Shown here in pieces: positions 8,756-61,831 of a DNA stretch of 64,000 nt. The notes beneath the pieces were generated by a model. The model ran no database searches. It worked only from the letters and a program-made list of their open reading frames with translations, and was not told the origin of the DNA. This DNA is from Acidaminococcus fermentans DSM 20731 (GTDB taxonomy: Bacteria; Bacillota; Negativicutes; Acidaminococcales; Acidaminococcaceae), in assembly GCF_000025305.1 (NCBI RefSeq), contig NC_013740.1, positions 930,001 through 994,000 of the forward strand, given 5' to 3'. Both the position numbers and the translations under genes were made by a program. Each line of letters begins with the position of its first letter. Positions within the stretch are counted from its first letter, which is position 1.

Positions 8756-8790
8756 CAACGATCAACGATGAACGACCAACGATCAACGAA
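8756..8790. repeat. Heptad repeat, five units (CAACGAN type)
   Basis: Five 7-bp units in register: CAACGAT, CAACGAT, GAACGAC, CAACGAT, CAACGAA. It sits between the AbgT stop codon and the ribosome binding site of the amidohydrolase. Confidence 0.9.
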
Positions 8791-8807: not shown

Positions 8808-9902
8808 ATGCTGATCCGCAATGCCAATCTGCTGAACCCCGGTACGGAACGGGGCATCTATGACATCCTGATCCGGGAGGGGAAAATCGCCCGGATCGCT
8901 CCCCATATCGAAGCGGAAGAAGAAGTGGAACTGGATGTCCAGGAAATGTATGTGACGCCCGGGCTGGTGGATGCTCACACCCATCTGGGACTGAAAGCGG
9001 ATTCCCAGGGGGAATTCTATGCCGACCACAATGAAAAAAAGAGCATCCTGTCCCCGGAAATGCGGGCCATCGATGCCATCAATCCCCAGAACGTGAATTT
9101 TGAGGAAGCCCGGAAAGCCGGGATTACCACCTGCGCCAGCGGTCCGGGGTCCCTGAACGTGATCGGGGGGCAGTACGCCTGCATCAAAACCCTGGGCCAC
9201 ATCGTCGACGACATGGTCCTGGACCCCTATTTCGCCATGAAATGTGCCCTGGGGGAAAACCCCAAGAAAGGGTATGAGACCACCCGGATGGGGATCGCTG
9301 CCACCCTGCGGAACTTCCTGTTCCAGGCCAAAGCCTATGCGGAAGACCCCAACCACAAATTCGACATGAAACTGGAACCCATGGTGCCGGTGATCCGGGG
9401 CGAAAAAGCCCTGAAGATCCACTGCCATGAAGCCATCGATATTGTGACGGCGGTACGGATCTGTGATGAATTCCATCTGAAATTCACCCTGGACCATGTA
9501 ACCTGCGGGGCCGAGGTGCTGGATTTCCTCCAGAAACGGCCGGAAATCCCCCTGCTGCTGGGGCCCACCCTGGGGCACAGGGGCAAGGTGGAGCTCCATG
9601 GCAAAAGCTTCGAAAACGTGGTGAAGCTGGCGGAAGGCCGGGATGTGTGCCTGATCACGGATGCGCCGGTGATCCCTCTGGAATATCTGCCGGTATGCGC
9701 CGGTCTGGCCATTGCCAAAGGGATGCCCTATGAACGGGCCCTGGAAGCGGTGACCATTAACCCGGCCCGGGTCATGGGGGTGGAAGACCGGGTAGGGAAC
9801 CTGGCTCCCGGCAAAGACGCCGACCTGGTGATCTGGAAGGACAAACCCTTCGTGGTGATCCAGGATCCGGTGGCGGTGTTCATCGAGGGGAAGAGGGTGT
9901 AA
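8808..9902 (+). CDS. Amidohydrolase (dihydroorotase/imidazolonepropionase-like)
   Basis: A 364-residue metal-dependent hydrolase of the amidohydrolase superfamily. The N-terminal beta domain leads to the metal motif PGLVDAHTHLG (about residues 50-60); further metal-site candidates are IHCHEAID, FTLDHVTCG and LITDAPV, which supplies the catalytic aspartate. The C-terminus has the usual GNLAPGKDADLVIW. Composition fits a cytoplasmic enzyme without a signal peptide. ATG 8808 follows AAAGGAGG. Placed directly after the AbgT transporter, it may cleave the imported amide in place of the M20 peptidases AbgA/AbgB of E. coli. Specificity is unknown. Confidence 0.88.
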   Translation: MLIRNANLLNPGTERGIYDILIREGKIARIAPHIEAEEEVELDVQEMYVTPGLVDAHTHLGLKADSQGEFYADHNEKKSILSPEMRAIDAINPQNVNFEEARKAGITTCASGPGSLNVIGGQYACIKTLGHIVDDMVLDPYFAMKCALGENPKKGYETTRMGIAATLRNFLFQAKAYAEDPNHKFDMKLEPMVPVIRGEKALKIHCHEAIDIVTAVRICDEFHLKFTLDHVTCGAEVLDFLQKRPEIPLLLGPTLGHRGKVELHGKSFENVVKLAEGRDVCLITDAPVIPLEYLPVCAGLAIAKGMPYERALEAVTINPARVMGVEDRVGNLAPGKDADLVIWKDKPFVVIQDPVAVFIEGKRV

Positions 9903-12732: not shown

Positions 12733-12760
12733 GGGGTCCTGCTGCAGCGAAGCAGGACCG

Positions 12761-12788
12761 GTCAACGGTCAGCTGTCAGCTGTCAACG
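12761..12788. repeat. Heptad repeat, four units (GTCANNN type), with linked hairpin
   Basis: Units GTCAACG, GTCAGCT, GTCAGCT, GTCAACG, followed by the linker GCCGAAGGATC and a palindrome AATTTGC-AG-GCAAATT (about 12800-12816). A GGTCCTGCT hairpin precedes it and may terminate the dipeptidase transcript. Confidence 0.9.
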
Positions 12789-12823
12789 GCCGAAGGATCA
12801 ATTTGCAGGCAAATTTCATGAAG

Positions 12824-18598: not shown

Positions 18599-18938
18599 GT
18601 GAGTGCGGAAAGATAATCGCGGCAGCCCTTGTGGCTGATGAGGAAAGTCCGAGCTCCGCAGGGCAGGATGCTGGATAACGTCCAGTGGGGGCGACCCTAA
18701 GGAAAGTGCCACAGAAAACAAACCGCCGGCTCGCCGGTAAGGATGAAACGGTGCGGTAAGAGCGCACCAGCGGTCAAGTGATTGGCCGGCTTGGTAAACC
18801 CCATCCGGAGCAAGACCAAATAGGGAAGGGATGAAGCGGCCCGCTGAGCCTTCCGGGTAGCGTTGCTTGAACCTGCAGGCAACTGCAGGGCTAGATAAAT
18901 GATTATCCTAGACAGAACTCGGCTTACTGAGCACTCAC
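18599..18938 (+). ncRNA. rnpB: RNase P RNA (class A)
   Basis: The catalytic RNA of ribonuclease P, which matures tRNA 5' ends. The ends pair as P1 (GTGAGTGC with GCACTCAC). Conserved blocks are present in order: GAGGAAAGTCCGAGCTCC, CAGGGCAGGATGCTGGATAA, GGGGGCGACCCTAAGGAAAG, GTGCCACAGAAAACAAACCG, AAGGATGAAACGGTGCGGTA, AGAGCGCACCAGCG, GGTAAACCCCATCCGGAGCA, and near the 3' end AGATAAATGATTATCCTAGA followed by ACAGAACTCGGCTTA. Length about 340 nt is normal for type A. Thioredoxin follows within 45 bases. Confidence 0.97.
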
Positions 18939-18981
18939 AACCTGAAAAAGTACCTTGTGCCTGAGGCACGGAGGAGGAAAT

Positions 18982-20287: not shown

Positions 20288-20311
20288 AAGAGCCGGCAAA
20301 ACTAAATAAAA

Positions 20312-20423
20312 AAGCCGAATCACAGCAATGTGAACGGGGGAACCAAAGTGGGGTTAATTTCTTCGGAATAGGGCATCTCGACCCGCACCCGGCAGCTAAC
20401 TTCGTAGGCGTAATCGAGAGGAT
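20312..20423 (+). promoter_or_regulatory. Cyclic di-AMP riboswitch (ydaO-yuaA type)
   Basis: The conserved blocks are in order: GCCGAAT, AACGGGGGAACC, GTGGGGTTAAT, ATAGGGC, CTCGACCCGCACCCG, GCAGCTAACTTCGTAGGCGT and the closing CGAGAGGA. This is the ydaO-type aptamer, which binds cyclic di-AMP and usually represses cell-wall hydrolase or potassium and osmolyte genes. The aptamer ends within two bases of the first possible start codon of the downstream gene, and no terminator hairpin can be fitted between them. Confidence 0.92.
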
Positions 20424-21146
20424 GTGTTTATTATATTTAGGAGGATGATGCTTGGCGTAGTGCTGGCAGCGGCGACCACCGCAGCAGTGGCATTACCTGC
20501 GCAGAACGTATTTGCCAGTTTCAAACCAGGTCAGTCGGGACCGGAAGTGGCAGCCATCCAGGAACAGCTCCTGATGGAAGGCTATGACATCGGGATCCCT
20601 GACGGGGTCTATGGAGCCCGTACCGTGGCTGCGGTAAAGAAATACCAGGCCAGCATGGGGCTGGCGGCAGACGGGGTCATCGGGAACTTCACCTACAAAA
20701 AGCTCATGGGCAGAGAAATGCCCACCCACCGTACGCTGAACACCAACCGGGGATATGGCAGCAGCTATGGTTATGGCAGCAGTACGGCCAGAGAGCTGAT
20801 CAGCACCGCTTACGATTATGTTGGGGTGCCTTATGTTTTCGGGGGGACCACCCCCTGGGGCTTTGACTGTTCCGGATACACCCAGTATGTATTCCGGCAG
20901 ATGGGAATCGAAATTCCCCGGACAGCGGATGCCCAGTATTATGCTTTCCCGAAAGTTTCTTCCAGCGAGCTGGAACCGGGAGATCTGGTGTTTTTTGAAA
21001 CTTATGAACCGGGCCCGTCCCACTGCGGCATTTACATCGGCAACGGTCAGATGCTGCAGGCCGGGAGCAGCACCGGTGTCACAGTATCCAATGTGTTCAG
21101 TGGATACTGGGGCGCAAGATATATCGGAGCGGCACGAGTCCTCTAA
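20424..21146 (+). CDS. Secreted cell-wall hydrolase, peptidoglycan-binding and NlpC/P60 domains
   Basis: A 240-residue exported peptidoglycan hydrolase. From GTG 20424 the order is: signal peptide (basic IFRR, hydrophobic core, cleavage near NVFA), a PG_binding_1 repeat (about 33-95, GPEVAAIQEQLL and GVYGARTVAAVKKYQ), a Gly/Ser/Tyr-rich linker (about 105-120) and an NlpC/P60 domain with the nucleophile in WGFDCSGYTQ (Cys149) and the histidine in GPSHCGIYIG. It would cut stem-peptide bonds. The start is uncertain: ATG 20445 and 20448 sit almost on the AGGAGG site and give a signal peptide with no basic residue. Control by the preceding c-di-AMP riboswitch is expected. Confidence 0.9.
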   Translation: MFIIFRRMMLGVVLAAATTAAVALPAQNVFASFKPGQSGPEVAAIQEQLLMEGYDIGIPDGVYGARTVAAVKKYQASMGLAADGVIGNFTYKKLMGREMPTHRTLNTNRGYGSSYGYGSSTARELISTAYDYVGVPYVFGGTTPWGFDCSGYTQYVFRQMGIEIPRTADAQYYAFPKVSSSELEPGDLVFFETYEPGPSHCGIYIGNGQMLQAGSSTGVTVSNVFSGYWGARYIGAARVL

Positions 21147-29912: not shown

Positions 29913-29955
29913 ATGGGGCTATTGCGTGAGCAACAGCCCTGTCAACGGTCAGCTG
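29913..29955. repeat. Hairpin plus two heptad units after tyrS
   Basis: GGGGCTATTGC-GTGA-GCAACAGCCC (hairpin family member), then GTCAACG GTCAGCT GACA. It is the shortest heptad locus in the window. Confidence 0.7.
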
Positions 29956-29963
29956 ACAAAAAA

Positions 29964-29998
29964 GGAGTACTGCACGCTCATGTGCAGTACTCCTTTTT
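29964..29998. terminator. Bidirectional terminator, tyrS and acyl-CoA synthetase-like gene
   Basis: GGAGTACTGCAC, loop GCTCAT, GTGCAGTACTCC, flanked by AAAAAA and TTTTT, between two convergent genes. Confidence 0.85.
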
Positions 29999-34770: not shown

Positions 34771-35362
34771 CCAGAAAATCCTGCTGGATGGGCTGGCCAG
34801 GCTGCTGGAACCGTATGAAGACCTGGAGGTGGTGGGGCAGCTGCCCTTTTCGGAAATGGTGGAAACAGCCTGCGGCCGGCTGAAGCCCCATGTGGTACTG
34901 ATGGATATCTGCATGGAAGGGAAGACCAGCGGGATCGAATGTACCCGGAAGATCAAAAAGCATTTTCCCCAGATCAAAGTCATCATCATGACCGGTTTCC
35001 AGGATGTGCATTTTGTGGAACTGGCCCAGGAGGCGGGGGCGGACAGTTTCATCTACAAAGAAAGTGCTGCAGACCAGTTCGTGGACTGCATCCACCGTAC
35101 CATGGAGGGGGAGCATCTGTTCCCGGATGTCCAGGAACGGACCACCTTTGGATTTTACAACGCCACCCTGACCCAGCGGGAAATCCAGATCCTGCACCTG
35201 GTCTGCCAGAACCTGAGCTATCAGGAAATCGCCGACCGGCTGCAGCTGACCCGCCGGACCGTCAGCTTCCACATCAGCAACATGCTCAGCAAAACCGGCC
35301 ACAAAAGCCTGGTGGGACTGGCTGTGGAAGCGGCAGAGAAGGGGTATGCAGGGAGGGAGTAG
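34745..35362 (+). CDS. NarL/LuxR family response regulator
   Basis: A 205-residue regulator with a receiver domain (acidic pair VDDQ at 8-9, Asp54 in VVLMDICME, Lys in FIYKES) and a LuxR-type helix-turn-helix (LTQREIQILHLVCQNLSYQEIADRLQLTRRTVSFHISNMLSKTGHKS). It starts inside the kinase gene, with GGAAGGGACG upstream, and completes a three-gene signalling operon. Target genes are not identifiable; a hairpin follows the stop directly. Confidence 0.93.
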   Translation: MIRILLVDDQKILLDGLARLLEPYEDLEVVGQLPFSEMVETACGRLKPHVVLMDICMEGKTSGIECTRKIKKHFPQIKVIIMTGFQDVHFVELAQEAGADSFIYKESAADQFVDCIHRTMEGEHLFPDVQERTTFGFYNATLTQREIQILHLVCQNLSYQEIADRLQLTRRTVSFHISNMLSKTGHKSLVGLAVEAAEKGYAGRE

Positions 35363-35621
35363 GTCTGTTGCTGGGGCAACAGACCCTGTCAGCAGTCAAC
35401 TGTCAACTGCCGAAGGAAGCCAGTAAACTGGCTTTGAACAAGGGCAACAATTGGATAAATCGTACCTGTAGGGGCAGCAGGCCCGGCTGCCCGCCAAATC
35501 AGAAGTTGACCATGTGTTCTGCGGGGCGCCGGGCCTGCGCCCCCTACGGTTTATGCTGTTTAAAAATCAATTTGAAAATTGATTTCTATCGGCCGCTGAC
35601 CGCTGACCGTTGACAGCTGAC
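35362..35621. repeat. Repeat-rich intergenic block: hairpin, two heptad runs, two palindromic elements
   Basis: The 376-base gap after the LuxR gene holds no gene. In order: hairpin GGTCTGTTGC/GCAACAGACC (35362-35385); heptads GTCAGCA GTCAACT GTCAACT (35388-35408); linker GCCGAAGGAA and hairpin GCCAGT-AA-ACTGGC; palindrome GTAGGGGCAGCAGGCCC... (35468-35495); palindrome GCGGGGCGCCGGGCCTGCGC with CCCCTACGG (35521-35549); palindrome AAATCAATTT-GA-AAATTGATTT (about 35564-35585); heptads CGCTGAC CGCTGAC CGTTGAC AGCTGAC (35594-35621). Confidence 0.9.
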
Positions 35622-35623
35622 AA

Positions 35624-35668
35624 AATGGAGGGGTGTTGTACTTTTTGTGCAAAACCCCTCCATTTTTC
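35624..35668. terminator. Hairpin terminator upstream of the nucleoside hydrolase
   Basis: AATGGAGGGGTGTTGTAC paired with GTGCAAAACCCCTCCATT, then TTTCTC. Confidence 0.7.
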
Positions 35669-35676
35669 TCAACCCT

Positions 35677-35697
35677 GTACTTTAGTACAGTGCGGAA
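35677..35697 (+). promoter_or_regulatory. Palindromic operator copy 1 (CTGTACTTTAGTACAG)
   Basis: The 16-base palindrome CTGTACT-TT-AGTACAG is followed by TGCG and, after about 20 bases, a -10-like TATACT. The same palindrome plus TGCG is found at 38592-38612. It overlaps the -35 position, so the binder is probably an activator or a repressor of the nucleoside hydrolase operon. Confidence 0.6.
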
Positions 35698-35738
35698 ATC
35701 TCCTGCTTCCGGTATACTGGAGACAGGAGGTGAAGACA

Positions 35739-36839
35739 ATGAAGATACAGAATGATTTCAGAAAATTCTTTCGTATTGTGGGGATCCTGGCGCTTGCGGT
35801 CCTGGCCCCTTTGGGGCGGGGGCTGGCAGCTGAGAAGGAAAAGGTGATCCTGGATACGGATATGGTGGAACTGCTGGATGACGGGGTGGCCATGATGATG
35901 CTGGCCCAGGCCCCCAACATCCAGTTGGAAGGGGTGACCATCGTCTTTGGGAACACCTGGGTGGAAACCGGGACCGCAGCGGCCATCCGTCAGTTGGAAG
36001 GGATGGGACGGAAGGATATCCCGGTGTTTATGGGGGTGAATGAACCCACCCGGAAAGACCGGTTTGCCCATATGGCGGAAGAAAAACGCCTGTACGGACA
36101 GAATTTCGACAGCCATAAAGGAGCCGCCGGCTATCCCCGTCCGGCTTCCTGGCAGCAGGTATACCGGGAACGGTACCACCGGGAACCGGAACTGCAGCCC
36201 CGGAAGGAGGCGGCAGCCGATTTCATTGTCCGGACCATCCGGAAGAATCCTGGAGAGGTGACCCTGGTGGCCATTGGCAGTGGAGCCAACCTGGCGGCAG
36301 CCCTGGACCGGGATCCGTCCATTGCCGGAAAGGTGAAACGGGTGGTGTACATGGCCGGAGCCTTCATGGTGGAAGGCAATGTGATGCCCCACGGAGAATT
36401 CAATGTATGGATCGATCCGGAATCGGCCCGGAAAGTGTACCGGGCACCCTGGACGGAACAGGTGTTCCTGCCGCTGGATGTATGCAATACGGCCAAACTG
36501 AGCCGGCAGGAATATCAGGTGCTTACGGGGAAAATCACCCAGCCCTGGGCCCGTGCCATGTGGAAGGATTACTGGGCAGGGCCTCTGTTCCAGCAGGATC
36601 CGGGCTTTTCCAGCTATATCTGGGATGTGCTGGCCGCTGCCGTGGTCATCGATCCCCTGGTGATCACCCGGGAAGAAACCCTGCCGGTGGATGTGAATGA
36701 CCAGTACGGACCGGGCTATGGAGATACGCTGGCTTACCGGGGCTTTGGACCGGAAGGTACCCAGAAGGCCCGGATCGTCTTTGCCGTGGATCAGGACCGG
36801 CTGTGGCCCATGGTGGAAAAAGTCTTTGACCGGCTGTAA
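35739..36839 (+). CDS. Exported inosine-uridine type nucleoside hydrolase
   Basis: A 366-residue nucleoside hydrolase with a signal peptide (MKIQNDFRKFFRIVGILALAVLAPLGRGLAA), so it acts in the periplasm, releasing bases and ribose from nucleosides. The calcium-binding start motif reads VILDTDMVELLDDGVAMMML, two residues longer than the usual DTDxGxDDA. Other family parts: GVTIVFGN-WVETGTAAAI, VTLVAIGSGANLAAAL, VYMAGAF, PHGEFNVWIDPESARKV and LDVCNTAKLSRQ. The start has ACAGGAGG upstream. It is transcribed with the 5'-nucleotidase gene 18 bases later. Confidence 0.9.
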   Translation: MKIQNDFRKFFRIVGILALAVLAPLGRGLAAEKEKVILDTDMVELLDDGVAMMMLAQAPNIQLEGVTIVFGNTWVETGTAAAIRQLEGMGRKDIPVFMGVNEPTRKDRFAHMAEEKRLYGQNFDSHKGAAGYPRPASWQQVYRERYHREPELQPRKEAAADFIVRTIRKNPGEVTLVAIGSGANLAAALDRDPSIAGKVKRVVYMAGAFMVEGNVMPHGEFNVWIDPESARKVYRAPWTEQVFLPLDVCNTAKLSRQEYQVLTGKITQPWARAMWKDYWAGPLFQQDPGFSSYIWDVLAAAVVIDPLVITREETLPVDVNDQYGPGYGDTLAYRGFGPEGTQKARIVFAVDQDRLWPMVEKVFDRL

Positions 36840-36857
36840 AAAAGAGAGGAGAAAACC

Positions 36858-38456
36858 ATGCTCAACCGCAAGAAATTCCTGCGGGCCGGCGCTTCTGCCG
36901 CCCTCTTTGCCCTTCTGCTGCCTCTCCAGGCCTGGGCCCAGGTGGTGATACTCCACACCAACGACATCCATTGCGGGGTGGACAGGAACCTGACCCTGGC
37001 CCGGGTGGCGGCTTATAAAAAGAAACAGAAAGCCCTGAATCCCCAGACCCTGCTCCTGGACGCCGGAGATGCCATCCAGGGGGAACCCCTGGGGAAACTC
37101 ACCGACGGACGGGCCATGGTCCGGATCCTGAATGGGGCGGGCTATGATTTTGCCATTCCCGGCAACCATGAATTCGATTACGGCATGGACAACTTCCTGT
37201 CCCTGGCCAAAAAACTGGACTGCGGGTACACCAGCTGCAACTTCGTCCGGCTGGATACCGGGAAACCCGTCCTGGCCCCCTGCCGGATCTTTCCCTTCAA
37301 AGAACGGAAGGTGGCGCTTATCGGGGTCACCACCCCCGGTACCCTGGTGTCGTCCACGCCCCGGTTCTTCCAGGACGAAAAAGGCCATTTTATCTATGGA
37401 TTCTGTGAGGACAAAGCAGGGGTGAAGCTTTACAGACAGGTCCAGGATACGGTGGAGGAAGCACGGGAACAAGGGGCGGATACGGTGATCCTGGTGGCGC
37501 ATCTGGGCAGTGACGGTTCCATCCCCGTATGGAGCAGCCGGGCACTCCTGGCCCATGTAACCGGCGTGGACGGGCTCATCGACGGCCATTCTCACGAACA
37601 GTACGAAGTGTTCTATCCGGACCGGAACGGGAAAATGATCCCGGTGGCCCAGACCGGCACCAAACTCCAAAGCCTGGGGCGTATGGTCATCGAAGATGAC
37701 GGTACCATCCGGGGCGAACTGGTCCGGGAGCTGATGGAGCCGGATCCCCAGGTGGAGAAACTGGTCCGGAAAGAAATGGCCAAAGTGGACCGGGCCCTGT
37801 CCCAGAAGGTGGGAGAATCCTCTGTGGAACTGGTGGATTCCCTGGAGGGCCAGCGGGCCGTGCGCCAGAAGGAAACCAATCTGGGGGATTTTGCCGCAGA
37901 TGCTTTCCGGACCTGTTTCAAGGCGGATGCGGCCCTGATCAACGGGGGCTCCTTCCGGTCCGGTCTGCCCCGGGGCGCCTGGACCCGGAAGACCCTTCTG
38001 ACCCTGTTCCCCTTTGGGAACCAGGCGGTGCTCCGGAGTATTTCCGGCCAGCAGCTGCTGGATGCCCTGGAACTGAGCGTATCCCATGCGCCGGAAGAAA
38101 ACGGCGGGTTCCTCCAGGTATCCGGGCTGACCTTTGTCTACGATCCGGCCATCCCCTCACCGGTGAAACTGGATGACCAGGGAAATTTCGCCCGGGTGGA
38201 AGGGGAACGGAGGGTCCGCCAGGTGATGATCGGCGGCAAACCCCTGGATCCGGCGGAAGACTATCTGGTGGCCGGGACCAGCTACATCCTCAGCGACGGG
38301 GGCAACGGCTATACCATGTTCCGGGACACCACCCTGGTAGCGGAACCGGGCCTGTCCGACGTGGACATCCTGGCTGATTACGTCCAGAAACAGGGCGTCA
38401 GCGAGGCCTATCGGAAGCCGGAAGGGCAGGGGAGGATCCGGATAGACAGGAAATAA
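36858..38456 (+). CDS. Exported 5'-nucleotidase / 2',3'-cyclic phosphodiesterase (UshA-like)
   Basis: A 532-residue metallophosphoesterase with a Tat-like or Sec signal peptide (MLNRKKFLRAGASAALFALLLPLQAWA). The catalytic domain has ILHTNDIHCG, LLLDAGDAIQGEPLG, IPGNHEFDYG, VAHLGSDG and DGLIDGHSHEQYE; the C-terminal substrate domain has ETNLGDFAADAFR, AALINGGSFR, LFPFGNQ and AGTSYILSDGGNGY. It would dephosphorylate nucleotides in the periplasm, feeding the nucleoside hydrolase upstream: a two-gene scavenging operon. Confidence 0.94.
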   Translation: MLNRKKFLRAGASAALFALLLPLQAWAQVVILHTNDIHCGVDRNLTLARVAAYKKKQKALNPQTLLLDAGDAIQGEPLGKLTDGRAMVRILNGAGYDFAIPGNHEFDYGMDNFLSLAKKLDCGYTSCNFVRLDTGKPVLAPCRIFPFKERKVALIGVTTPGTLVSSTPRFFQDEKGHFIYGFCEDKAGVKLYRQVQDTVEEAREQGADTVILVAHLGSDGSIPVWSSRALLAHVTGVDGLIDGHSHEQYEVFYPDRNGKMIPVAQTGTKLQSLGRMVIEDDGTIRGELVRELMEPDPQVEKLVRKEMAKVDRALSQKVGESSVELVDSLEGQRAVRQKETNLGDFAADAFRTCFKADAALINGGSFRSGLPRGAWTRKTLLTLFPFGNQAVLRSISGQQLLDALELSVSHAPEENGGFLQVSGLTFVYDPAIPSPVKLDDQGNFARVEGERRVRQVMIGGKPLDPAEDYLVAGTSYILSDGGNGYTMFRDTTLVAEPGLSDVDILADYVQKQGVSEAYRKPEGQGRIRIDRK

Positions 38457-38493
38457 GGCGCTGTGAAAAAATCATCCCCAGCGCCTTTATTTC
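38457..38493 (+). terminator. Terminator of the nucleotide-scavenging operon
   Basis: AAGGCGCTG paired with CAGCGCCTT around a 17-base loop, then TATTTC. Confidence 0.75.
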
Positions 38494-38518
38494 GCTAGCG
38501 TCAGCTGGCTTCCATCGG

Positions 38519-38546
38519 CTAGTGACTAGAGACTAGTGACTAGTGA
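38519..38546. repeat. Heptad repeat, four units (CTAGTGA type), with linked hairpin
   Basis: CTAGTGA CTAGAGA CTAGTGA CTAGTGA. Upstream, read in reverse, lies CCGATGGAAGCCAG-CTGAC, the same linker and hairpin stem start as at 35409 (CCGAAGGAAGCCAG). Confidence 0.9.
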
Positions 38547-38547
38547 C

Positions 38548-38584
38548 GGGGTGTGAAAAAGCATTTTTTCACACCCCCTTTTTT
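38548..38584. terminator. Hairpin terminator
   Basis: GGGGTGTGAAAAA, loop GCA, TTTTTTCACACCCC, then CTTTTTT. Its stem is nearly the same as at 9907-9950. Confidence 0.8.
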
Positions 38585-59999: not shown

Positions 60000-60716
60000 T
60001 CAGCCGTTGACCGCTGACAGCTGACCGGGCTGCAGCAGCCCATTCAGCACCTGCCGCTTGGCTGCGATGAGCCCTGGAGAGAGCAGGTCCCGTTTTCCCG
60101 GGGCCAGGTGCTGTTCCTGGGTGATTCGGCCGTCTTTCAAAATCAGCAGTCGGTCCCCCAGGATCAGGGCCTCGTCCACATTGTGGGTCACCAGCACCAC
60201 CCCCATGGAGAGCTGTTCCACCATGGAGCGGAGTTCCTGCTGGAGCTGGGAACGGGTGAAATAATCCAGGGCGGCAAAGGGTTCGTCCATCAGGATCAGA
60301 TCACTGTGCATGGCCAGGGTCCGGGCCAGGGAAGCCCGCTGCTGCATGCCTCCGGACAGCTGGGAAGGATACTGGTCCGCCGCTTCCGTCAGCTGGACAA
60401 GCTGCAGCCAGTGGTCCGTTTCCCGGGGATCCGTGCCCGCCGGCAGCCCCAGGGTGATGTTTTCCCGGCAGGTGAGCCAGGGAAACAGCCGGGCTTCCTG
60501 GAACATCATCCCCAGTTTCAGGCCAGCGGGTTTTTCTACAGTGCCGCCATCCGGGGCTTCCAGGCCGGCCAGCAGCCGGAGCAGGGTGGTCTTGCCGCAG
60601 CCGCTTTTTCCCAGGATCACAGTGCATTCCCGGGGATGGAGGGTCAGGGACAGGTCCCGGAGCACGGTCCGGGTGCCATAGGTTTTGGTAATGCCGTCCA
60701 GTTTCAGCGCATCCAA
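60000..60716 (-). CDS. ABC transporter ATP-binding protein (SsuB/TauB type)
   Basis: A 238-residue ATPase with Walker A ILGKSGCGKTTLLRLLAG, Q-loop MMFQEARLFPWLT, signature QLSGGMQQRASLARTLA, Walker B LILMDEPFAALD and H-loop LVTHNVDEAL. It drives the NitT/TauT-type importer with the overlapping permease gene and the lipoprotein. The last eight residues, GQLSAVNG, and the stop codon are encoded by the heptad repeat at 60005-60025, so the original C-terminus may have been replaced. Confidence 0.93.
   Translation of the reverse strand: MDALKLDGITKTYGTRTVLRDLSLTLHPRECTVILGKSGCGKTTLLRLLAGLEAPDGGTVEKPAGLKLGMMFQEARLFPWLTCRENITLGLPAGTDPRETDHWLQLVQLTEAADQYPSQLSGGMQQRASLARTLAMHSDLILMDEPFAALDYFTRSQLQQELRSMVEQLSMGVVLVTHNVDEALILGDRLLILKDGRITQEQHLAPGKRDLLSPGLIAAKRQVLNGLLQPGQLSAVNG
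60005..60025. repeat. Heptad repeat, three units, inside the ATPase coding end
   Basis: CGTTGAC CGCTGAC AGCTGAC on the plus strand; next to it a hairpin GGAAC-CTGCTGCAA-GTTCC (about 59975-59993) and linker TTCCTTCAGC. Confidence 0.9.
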
Positions 60717-61722: not shown

Positions 61723-61743
61723 CTTTGACCAATGACAATTGAC
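61723..61743. repeat. Heptad repeat, three units (NNNTGAC type)
   Basis: CTTTGAC CAATGAC AATTGAC, just upstream of the TM1266-like gene; its first unit overlaps the ribosome binding site. The adjoining GGGGATGCTGC/GCAGCACCCCC hairpin (61745-61770) may end the tctA transcript. Confidence 0.85.
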
Positions 61744-61831
61744 AGGGGATGCTGCAGCGCAGCACCCCCTTTACTCTGTCCCTCTTCCATCGCAAGGGGT
61801 CTTTTGATGTGAGAAGGCTTTTTTGTCAGAT

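Follow-up and report, generated by a model that had tools for sequence, protein, structure and literature searches.

The heptads form a genome-wide repeat family

The window analysed here is a 64,000-nt stretch of the genome of the gut bacterium Acidaminococcus fermentans (G000; 2,329,769 bp, one contig), a genome that holds more than 100 short runs of a loosely repeated 7-base motif. The two runs at 35388-35621 raise the question of what these heptads are, how they reached their sites and how they change. The preliminary description of the window had listed eight heptamer runs, and all eight were located where it placed them. We searched the window with the pattern GTCANNNGTCANNNGTCA, allowing at most one mismatch, and found 10 matches compared to 0.31 expected (sd 0.65; maximum 3) from 100 dinucleotide-preserving shuffles of the 64-kb window alone. 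For the whole genome the reversed pattern served as the control, and 164 exact matches (89 and 75 by strand) were found throughout the sequence compared to 1 for the control. Neither an equal density in shuffled sequence nor an absence of runs elsewhere in the genome, which the preliminary description had named as arguments against a family, was observed, and the runs are far from what chance produces.

We also performed a core-free scan of the window (any 4-base core, three times in a row). Period 7 occurred at 12.5 per 100 kb, compared to 0-3.1 per 100 kb for periods 5, 8, 10 and 11 and 0 in one Markov simulation. Periods 6, 9 and 12 stood above period 7 (25.0, 21.9 and 15.6 per 100 kb), presumably because of codons.

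With three exact units as the search minimum, we extracted at least 119 arrays from the genome: 74 with three exact units, 43 with four and 2 with five. An earlier estimate of hundreds per genome was therefore roughly right. That estimate had come with the consensus NNNTGAC and three variable bases, of which the core and the period stood and the free triplet did not: across 404 units, the triplet after GTCA was mostly purine, C, then G, T or A (R-C-K in short), with A or G at position 5 in 354, C at position 6 in 318 and G, T or A at position 7 in 393. The commonest units were GTCAACG, GTCAGCT and GTCAGCG. The arrays are more than simple microsatellites.

Loci in the window

The features are listed below; assignments were made from the sequence unless another source is named. 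G008 is a relative in the same genus, as is G004; the nine genus genomes are numbered G000 to G008.

8756-8790, plus strand: run from a different heptad family, with core ACGA, lying upstream of the ORF at 8808
12733-12760, plus strand: terminator-like first hairpin (H1), stem GGTCCTGCT..AGCAGGACC, right behind the stop codon of a C69 peptidase gene (gene by Pfam)
12761-12788, plus strand: heptad array GTCAACG GTCAGCT GTCAGCT GTCAACG
12789-12816, plus strand: linker GCCGAAGG and second hairpin (H2)
29916-29939, minus strand: terminator-like hairpin left of the 29941 array (terminator scan)
29941-29957, plus strand: two GTCA units followed by a facing TGAC unit (GTCAACGGTCAGCTGAC)
29959-29998, plus strand: terminator-like hairpin right of the 29941 array, with A-run and T-run (terminator scan)
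35362-35385, plus strand: hairpin H1, GGTCTGTTGC..GCAACAGACC, beginning on the last stop-codon base of a LuxR-type response regulator gene (gene by Pfam); missing in G008
35388-35408, plus strand: heptad array GTCAGCA GTCAACT GTCAACT, same sequence in G004
35409-35436, plus strand: linker GCCGAAGG and hairpin AAGCCAG..CTGGCTT (H2, class B)
35466-35545, no strand assigned: core of a REP-pair element, made up of a palindrome tagged with GTAG (from 35468) and its facing copy, which ends in CTAC
35564-35593, minus strand: hairpin AAATCAATTT..AAATTGATTT (H2, class A) and linker
35594-35621, minus strand: facing heptad array GTCAGCT GTCAACG GTCAGCG GTCAGCG
35622-35667, no strand assigned: far-side terminator-like hairpin with A-run/T-run
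38452-38583, minus strand: CTA element of about 130 bp (two outer terminator-like hairpins, heptads, linker, H2), dispersed in G000 and G008
38519-38546, minus strand: heptad array within the CTA element, GTCACTA units and one GTCTCTA
60005-60025, minus strand: heptad array GTCAGCT GTCAGCG GTCAACG, within the final codons of an ABC-ATPase ORF (60000-60716)
61723-61743, minus strand: heptad array GTCAATT GTCATTG GTCAAAG, flanked on one side by a hairpin (61744-61773) and on the other by a GGAGG-like ribosome-binding site (by eye)

The claim that seven runs share TGAC once every 7 bases held for the most part, the GTCT unit in 38519-38546 being the departure. The 29941 run belongs to the family, with two units meeting a facing one. 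The run at 8756 is real and belongs to a separate heptamer family, which also appears as about ten units downstream of the array at 556410 of G000 and, in the reverse form TCGTT, in G008. The runs are mostly intergenic, as had been described, except that 60005-60025 lies inside the end of the ABC-ATPase ORF. Two structured RNAs in the window scored above the Rfam gathering score, namely a class A RNase P RNA (18599-18942) and a c-di-AMP riboswitch (20303-20425).

The arrays lie between hairpins in composite elements

Many aligned arrays showed a recurrent order of a terminator-like hairpin, (GTCANNN)3-5, the motif GCCGAWGG and a second hairpin, and some extended further to GTAG palindromes and a facing array. 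H1 resembles an intrinsic terminator; its T-run lies ahead of the array at some loci, and at others the array stands at the stem foot. At 73 of the 119 arrays, a stem of 9 bp or more ended within 0-2 nt of the array, compared to 85 of 3000 intergenic control positions (2.8%), and a second hairpin at a distance of 7-10 nt (minimum score 8) was found at 48 of the 119, compared to 170 of 3000 control positions. We used this stricter test as laxer hairpin settings separated poorly (100/119 arrays, 569/1500 controls). The GCCGAWGG-type linker motif was present at 58 of the 119 arrays, on the side opposite H1; the linker was missing in 61 and a strong hairpin in 46. H2 comprises several unrelated sequences (AAATCAATTT, AAGCCAGC, AAAATTTGC and GGAACCCG types), so its position and pairing are kept and its sequence is not. 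The outer hairpins vary by locus, and some may therefore be host terminators and not parts of the elements.

A longer form of about 235 bp contains two facing GTAG palindromes and one array at each end. Both arrays at 35388-35621 are the ends of one such element, in the order array, linker, hairpin, GTAG palindrome, facing GTAG palindrome, hairpin, linker and facing array. The 119-array set holds 11 facing pairs, spaced 49-185 bp (back-to-back pairs not counted), and those at 206320, 1885963 and 2311901 have an interior other than GTAG palindromes. GTAG-tagged palindromes in facing pairs were seen, by eye and by motif, in the longer elements only. Elsewhere in the window, a 43-bp unit present 4.5 times at 671-865 (96% match) holds a CCCCTAC-type palindrome and forms a tandem GTAG repeat.

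The CTA element (about 130 bp, terminator-like hairpins at both ends, GTCACTA units) is dispersed in two species. Besides the window copy, it occurs in at least 18 places in G000 (91-98% identity among the matches listed) and in at least 30 places in G008 (85-99% identity among the matches listed). Seven copies fitted the strict pattern, with 2 to 5 units, and a looser search gave longer arrays (L177, L078). The element was also examined for the two traits of a MITE, terminal inverted repeats and a target-site duplication. The element ends, AAAAAGGSGSTGTGAAAAAAT, are inverted relative to each other by eye. A direct repeat of at least 5 bp that could be a target-site duplication was found in 0 of the 7 copies, and shorter matches (3-4 bp) were seen in 5 of the 7, A/T runs being excluded.

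The arrays lie past gene 3' ends

Gene neighbours were assigned with our own crude gene model, trained on Pfam-supported genes. Five of the 119 arrays overlapped a predicted gene 3' end, 10 lay at stretch edges and 104 had two predicted neighbours. Of these 104, 100 were past at least one gene 3' end and 4 lay in gaps between divergent genes; such gaps account for 8,204 of the 48,948 bp of intergenic DNA in these stretches. This avoidance of divergent regions depends on the choice of gene model, as two earlier models did not show it (21 and 22 arrays classed as divergent); both had been discarded for wrong-strand calls, such as 35682-38087 on the minus strand against Pfam-supported genes on the plus strand. 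The GTCA strand showed no preference relative to the genes (40 sense, 30 antisense, 30 between convergent genes). The array at 61723 is an exception, lying next to a GGAGG-like ribosome-binding site.

Five arrays lay 36-44 bp past 5S rRNA genes, behind a hairpin (L003, L004, L035, L048 and L099, at 29897, 62933, 385589, 642333 and 2072214 of G000). They appeared in three wordings (CTG-ACG-CTC, TTG-ACG-CTC and ACG-GCT-CTC) and are a natural set of paralogous arrays. Six rRNA operons are reported for the genome of A. fermentans VR4 (PMC3035267).

The GTCA core is confined to part of the genus

Exact matches to GTCANNNGTCANNNGTCA in the nine genus genomes, G000 to G008, numbered 164, 0, 0, 66, 108, 0, 1, 3 and 45. 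Four of the nine species (164, 66, 108 and 45 matches) are thus array-rich and the other five have 0-3, while 2 of 50 genomes from other genera of the family had one match each. The triplets differed by species, being mostly ACG/GCT/GCG in G000, ATG/GCG/ACG/ATT in G004 and mostly CTA in G008. The TGAC core, first proposed to be conserved together with the period, belongs to part of one genus. G005 had no GTCA arrays, yet the core-free scan found period-7 arrays with other cores at 12.0 per 100 kb, a few of them of low complexity. Across the seven species scanned, period 7 stood above periods 5, 8, 10 and 11 in five, with differing cores (G003 being represented by 20 kb and 3 hits), and the excess was absent in G001 (2.5 per 100 kb) and G002 (0). 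Other heptad cores within the genus were GTCT, ACGA and AGTG. The G005 arrays (L242-L251) were of GGCATTT, AGTGGTT and TTAGCCG types, and some adjoined the 12-mer AAAAGCGCCTTT. This 12-mer had 10 copies in the 200 kb of G005 searched and none in the 195 kb from G001 and G002.

In a sample of the phylum, a four-unit match was found in 33 of 398 genomes (G000 included), each with its own triplets; this is a count of genomes and not an excess, since outside the genus the reversed pattern is no neutral control and was as frequent as the pattern itself or more so in some genomes (for example G219 and G417), partly because arrays such as (GTCAACT)n hold ACTG every 7 bases. Among 30 loci of this sample read by eye, some arrays lay right behind a stop codon or ahead of a hairpin (L222, L229, L235, L236).

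Array wording turns over faster than the flanking DNA

The in-depth comparison covered two relatives, G004 and G008; G008 was taken mostly as continuous blocks, and G000 itself mainly around its arrays. When 23 G000 array sites were placed in G004, 14 had a GTCA array and 9 had none, a comparison biased to shared arrays because many G004 stretches had been picked for arrays. We compared 12 arrays common to both genomes, comprising 10 of 15 rows of paired sites together with 169341 and 1532422; the five rows dropped (L270 minus, L282, L285, L289 and L297) had no G000 array or arrays that could not be aligned. The triplets differed at 45 of their 114 positions. For the core the count was 4 of 152, a figure biased by the core-based selection. 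Unit number, which the preliminary description had proposed to compare at orthologous sites, differed in 7 of the 12. The flanks at the shared arrays were 83-99% identical, which indicates that the wording of the arrays turns over faster than the DNA around them. Triplets were identical in 3 of the 12 (1375967, 495157 and 965388), two of which had a flank at 99-100% identity. At 35388-35621 of the window the flanks were 99-100% identical to G004, compared to 83-97% for the majority of the other shared arrays, a difference that points to a possible recent exchange between the two species.

Sites were also found in different states. At 990005 and 991723 (window 60005 and 61723), G004 had degenerate remains only. 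At 262693, G004 had one plain terminator hairpin and G000 the same hairpin followed by facing heptads, a second hairpin and a T-run. At 965388 (window 35388), G004 lacked about 165 bp of the element (about 35451-35614), and a single base is shared at the junction; G008 had a plain terminator at this site. At window 38450, flanks conserved in four species enclosed three different insides: the CTA element in G000 and G008, one unrelated hairpin in G004, and GTCT-type heptads, hairpins and a REP pair in G003. Between close species, sites are filled, altered or replaced.

Fifteen G000 array sites were placed in G008, where six had a period-7 stretch (5 or more of the 7 columns fixed; 405945, 414083, 530180, 537960, 709833 and 1711340, four of them CTA-type) and nine had none; control periods 5, 8, 10 and 11 at the orthologous sites were positive in 1 of 60 tests. 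The CTA pairs of G000 and G008 differed by one unit at 1711340 and 414083 and by none at window 38450. At 530180, G008 had GTCACGA/ATCACTA, which keeps the GTCA core with other triplets, and at 537960 it had a related but different core (RYCACTN vs GTCANNN).

No mobilising enzyme was found in A. fermentans

Searches of G000 with the Y1_Tnp and RVT_1 profiles, together with inspection of its Y1 locus, found no mobilising enzyme for the heptad elements. The sole Y1 transposase of G000 sits beside TnpB, its 3.4-kb locus carries neither heptads nor GTAGGGG palindromes, and no RAYT (TnpA-REP) was seen in this genome. Array-rich G004 had zero Y1_Tnp matches and G005 had six with no GTCA arrays, so that an IS200/RAYT enzyme was rejected as a common driver.

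Discussion

We lean, by a modest degree, towards reading the heptads as a linker module of genus-restricted, BIME/BOX-like, non-autonomous and non-coding mosaic repeats that sit at terminator-like hairpins at gene 3' ends and are homogenised within species. Copies would spread as DNA, encoding no enzyme themselves, and would survive chiefly where the terminator is kept or restored. Units may be gained, lost and swapped via slippage and recombination among the many arrays, and such exchange would keep the core alike while making the triplets species-specific. A regulatory role of the heptads is not needed in this account. We counted in its favour the dispersal within the genus, the CTA copies, the hairpin register, the place at gene 3' ends, the site states, the fast turnover and the 11 facing pairs; we counted against it the lack of a target-site duplication of at least 5 bp in the seven CTA copies, the lack of a mobilising enzyme, and the 61 and 46 of 119 arrays lacking the linker and a strong hairpin, respectively. 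The GTAG palindromes suggest a RAYT.

The preliminary description was thus partly confirmed in what it observed and partly supported in how it interpreted it. It missed the hairpin-linker role within larger dispersed elements, the terminator-like hairpins at gene 3' ends and the limitation of the core to part of the genus.

A sequence-specific protein, such as a transposase or a DNA- or RNA-binding factor, might instead read GTCA every 7 bases as an iterated putative binding site, with the triplet tolerated or co-evolving. The low divergence of the core beside that of the triplet at the 12 arrays common with G004, and the same core in four species despite differing triplets, fit this idea, but core conservation is biased because the arrays were found by their core, and other families in the genus have other cores (GTCT, ACGA, AGTG). 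A 7-bp spacing sets neighbouring sites on different helix faces, so a simple dimer array is not favoured. On balance we hold the binding-site explanation to be unlikely.

A general period-7 process of slippage or template switching at hairpins could also generate heptads in place, whatever their sequence, and the elements would then carry them. The elevated period 7 in five of seven species with different cores and the changed core of G008 at 537960 agree with this, and a polymerase-slippage hypothesis for heptamers is cited by Rehm et al. (PMC4692102). However, an origin in place leaves unaccounted for the linker and hairpin modules that recur at many loci, the period-7 excess is missing in two of the seven species, the 15 comparisons with G008 are few, and the core change at a fixed site is seen at one site only, as G008 retains the GTCA core at 530180. 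We consider such an origin quite improbable.

Action in RNA, for example pyrimidine-C every 7 nt helping Rho to back up leaky terminators, appears very improbable. Rho uses pyrimidine-C sites spaced every 7 nt, the arrays, read in the GTCA direction, offer G-Y-C every 7 nt, and they stand at terminator-like hairpins; against this, their strand shows no preference relative to the upstream gene, for which a Rho-site role was rejected, they have 3-5 units only, and arrays right behind T-runs would rarely be transcribed. Copying of a short template into arrays by a telomerase-like reverse transcriptase, which short tandem units with a fixed core might recall, is barely credible and was rejected, since array-rich G000 and G003 (164 and 66 matches) have no match to the RVT_1 model, the one model used, and units vary inside one array.

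Returning to the heptads as a linker module of mosaic repeats, we found no earlier description of them from Acidaminococcus in the open-licence literature. The cyanobacterial likeness first proposed holds in a general way, and the nearest published cases are the intergenic heptamers of Xanthomonas and Nostoc (GGGANTN / GGGGAYT), which have heterogeneous units with some fixed positions, number 186 and 183 arrays in two Xanthomonas genomes with four units commonest, favour non-coding DNA, are rare between divergent genes, and mostly keep their gene neighbours while length and sequence vary between related species (PMC4692102). The Acidaminococcus arrays share the exact 7-nt tandem units with conserved and variable positions, the non-coding location (5/119 overlaps; 4/104 divergent by our own gene model) and the wording that changes between species at shared sites. 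They differ in having 3-4 units (3 being the search minimum), often between hairpins and in dispersed composite elements, and in lacking G-tracts, with no GGG in the commonest units. The Xanthomonas/Nostoc set has been discussed as quadruplex DNA, its four-unit preference being tied to the four G-tracts required, and heptamers are described there as over-represented in many bacterial genomes, their role unexplained (PMC4692102). A GTCA core without a G-tract forms no quadruplex, and quadruplexes are therefore not needed for heptamer habits, because the G-tract-free Acidaminococcus set behaves similarly.

The TAACTGA heptamers of Beggiatoaceae, with 169 sets in one genome, are likewise short arrays of patchy distribution; they are described as having a single unit sequence, mostly immediately 5' of putative start codons (PMC4679880), whereas the Acidaminococcus units are not TAACTGA, vary, and lie past gene 3' ends (61723 excepted). 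BOX of Streptococcus pneumoniae, with 125 copies in one genome, has a tandem middle module of variable copy number between fixed end modules (PMC3049150). The Acidaminococcus composite resembles it in plan and differs in its 7-bp middle module and interchangeable end hairpins. Facing GTAG-tagged palindromes inside the longer elements are shared with REP/BIME (PMC3733652), the differences being the presence of heptads and the RAYT not seen in G000; the main text of that paper contains neither "heptamer" nor "Acidaminococcus".

The Acidaminococcus heptads are a variant of a known sort of repeat, that of the heptamers of Xanthomonas, Nostoc and Beggiatoaceae. The habits shared with the Xanthomonas/Nostoc set are a number of 3-4 units, a place at gene 3' ends, scarcity between divergent genes, and common sites with altered wording between species. 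Heptamers might even be a general bacterial phenomenon, in which the period and the place beside hairpins are kept while the sequence and, in time, the core are rewritten, so that a hairpin-linked period-7 process, and not a protein or a quadruplex, would join Xanthomonas, Nostoc, Beggiatoaceae and Acidaminococcus; we regard this broader claim as rather improbable. In Acidaminococcus, heptamers are linked both to composite elements that are dispersed and to terminator hairpins being replaced. Strain typing could make use of the variable unit number, and because the wording outpaces the flanking DNA, the genus gives a direct view of how such arrays evolve.
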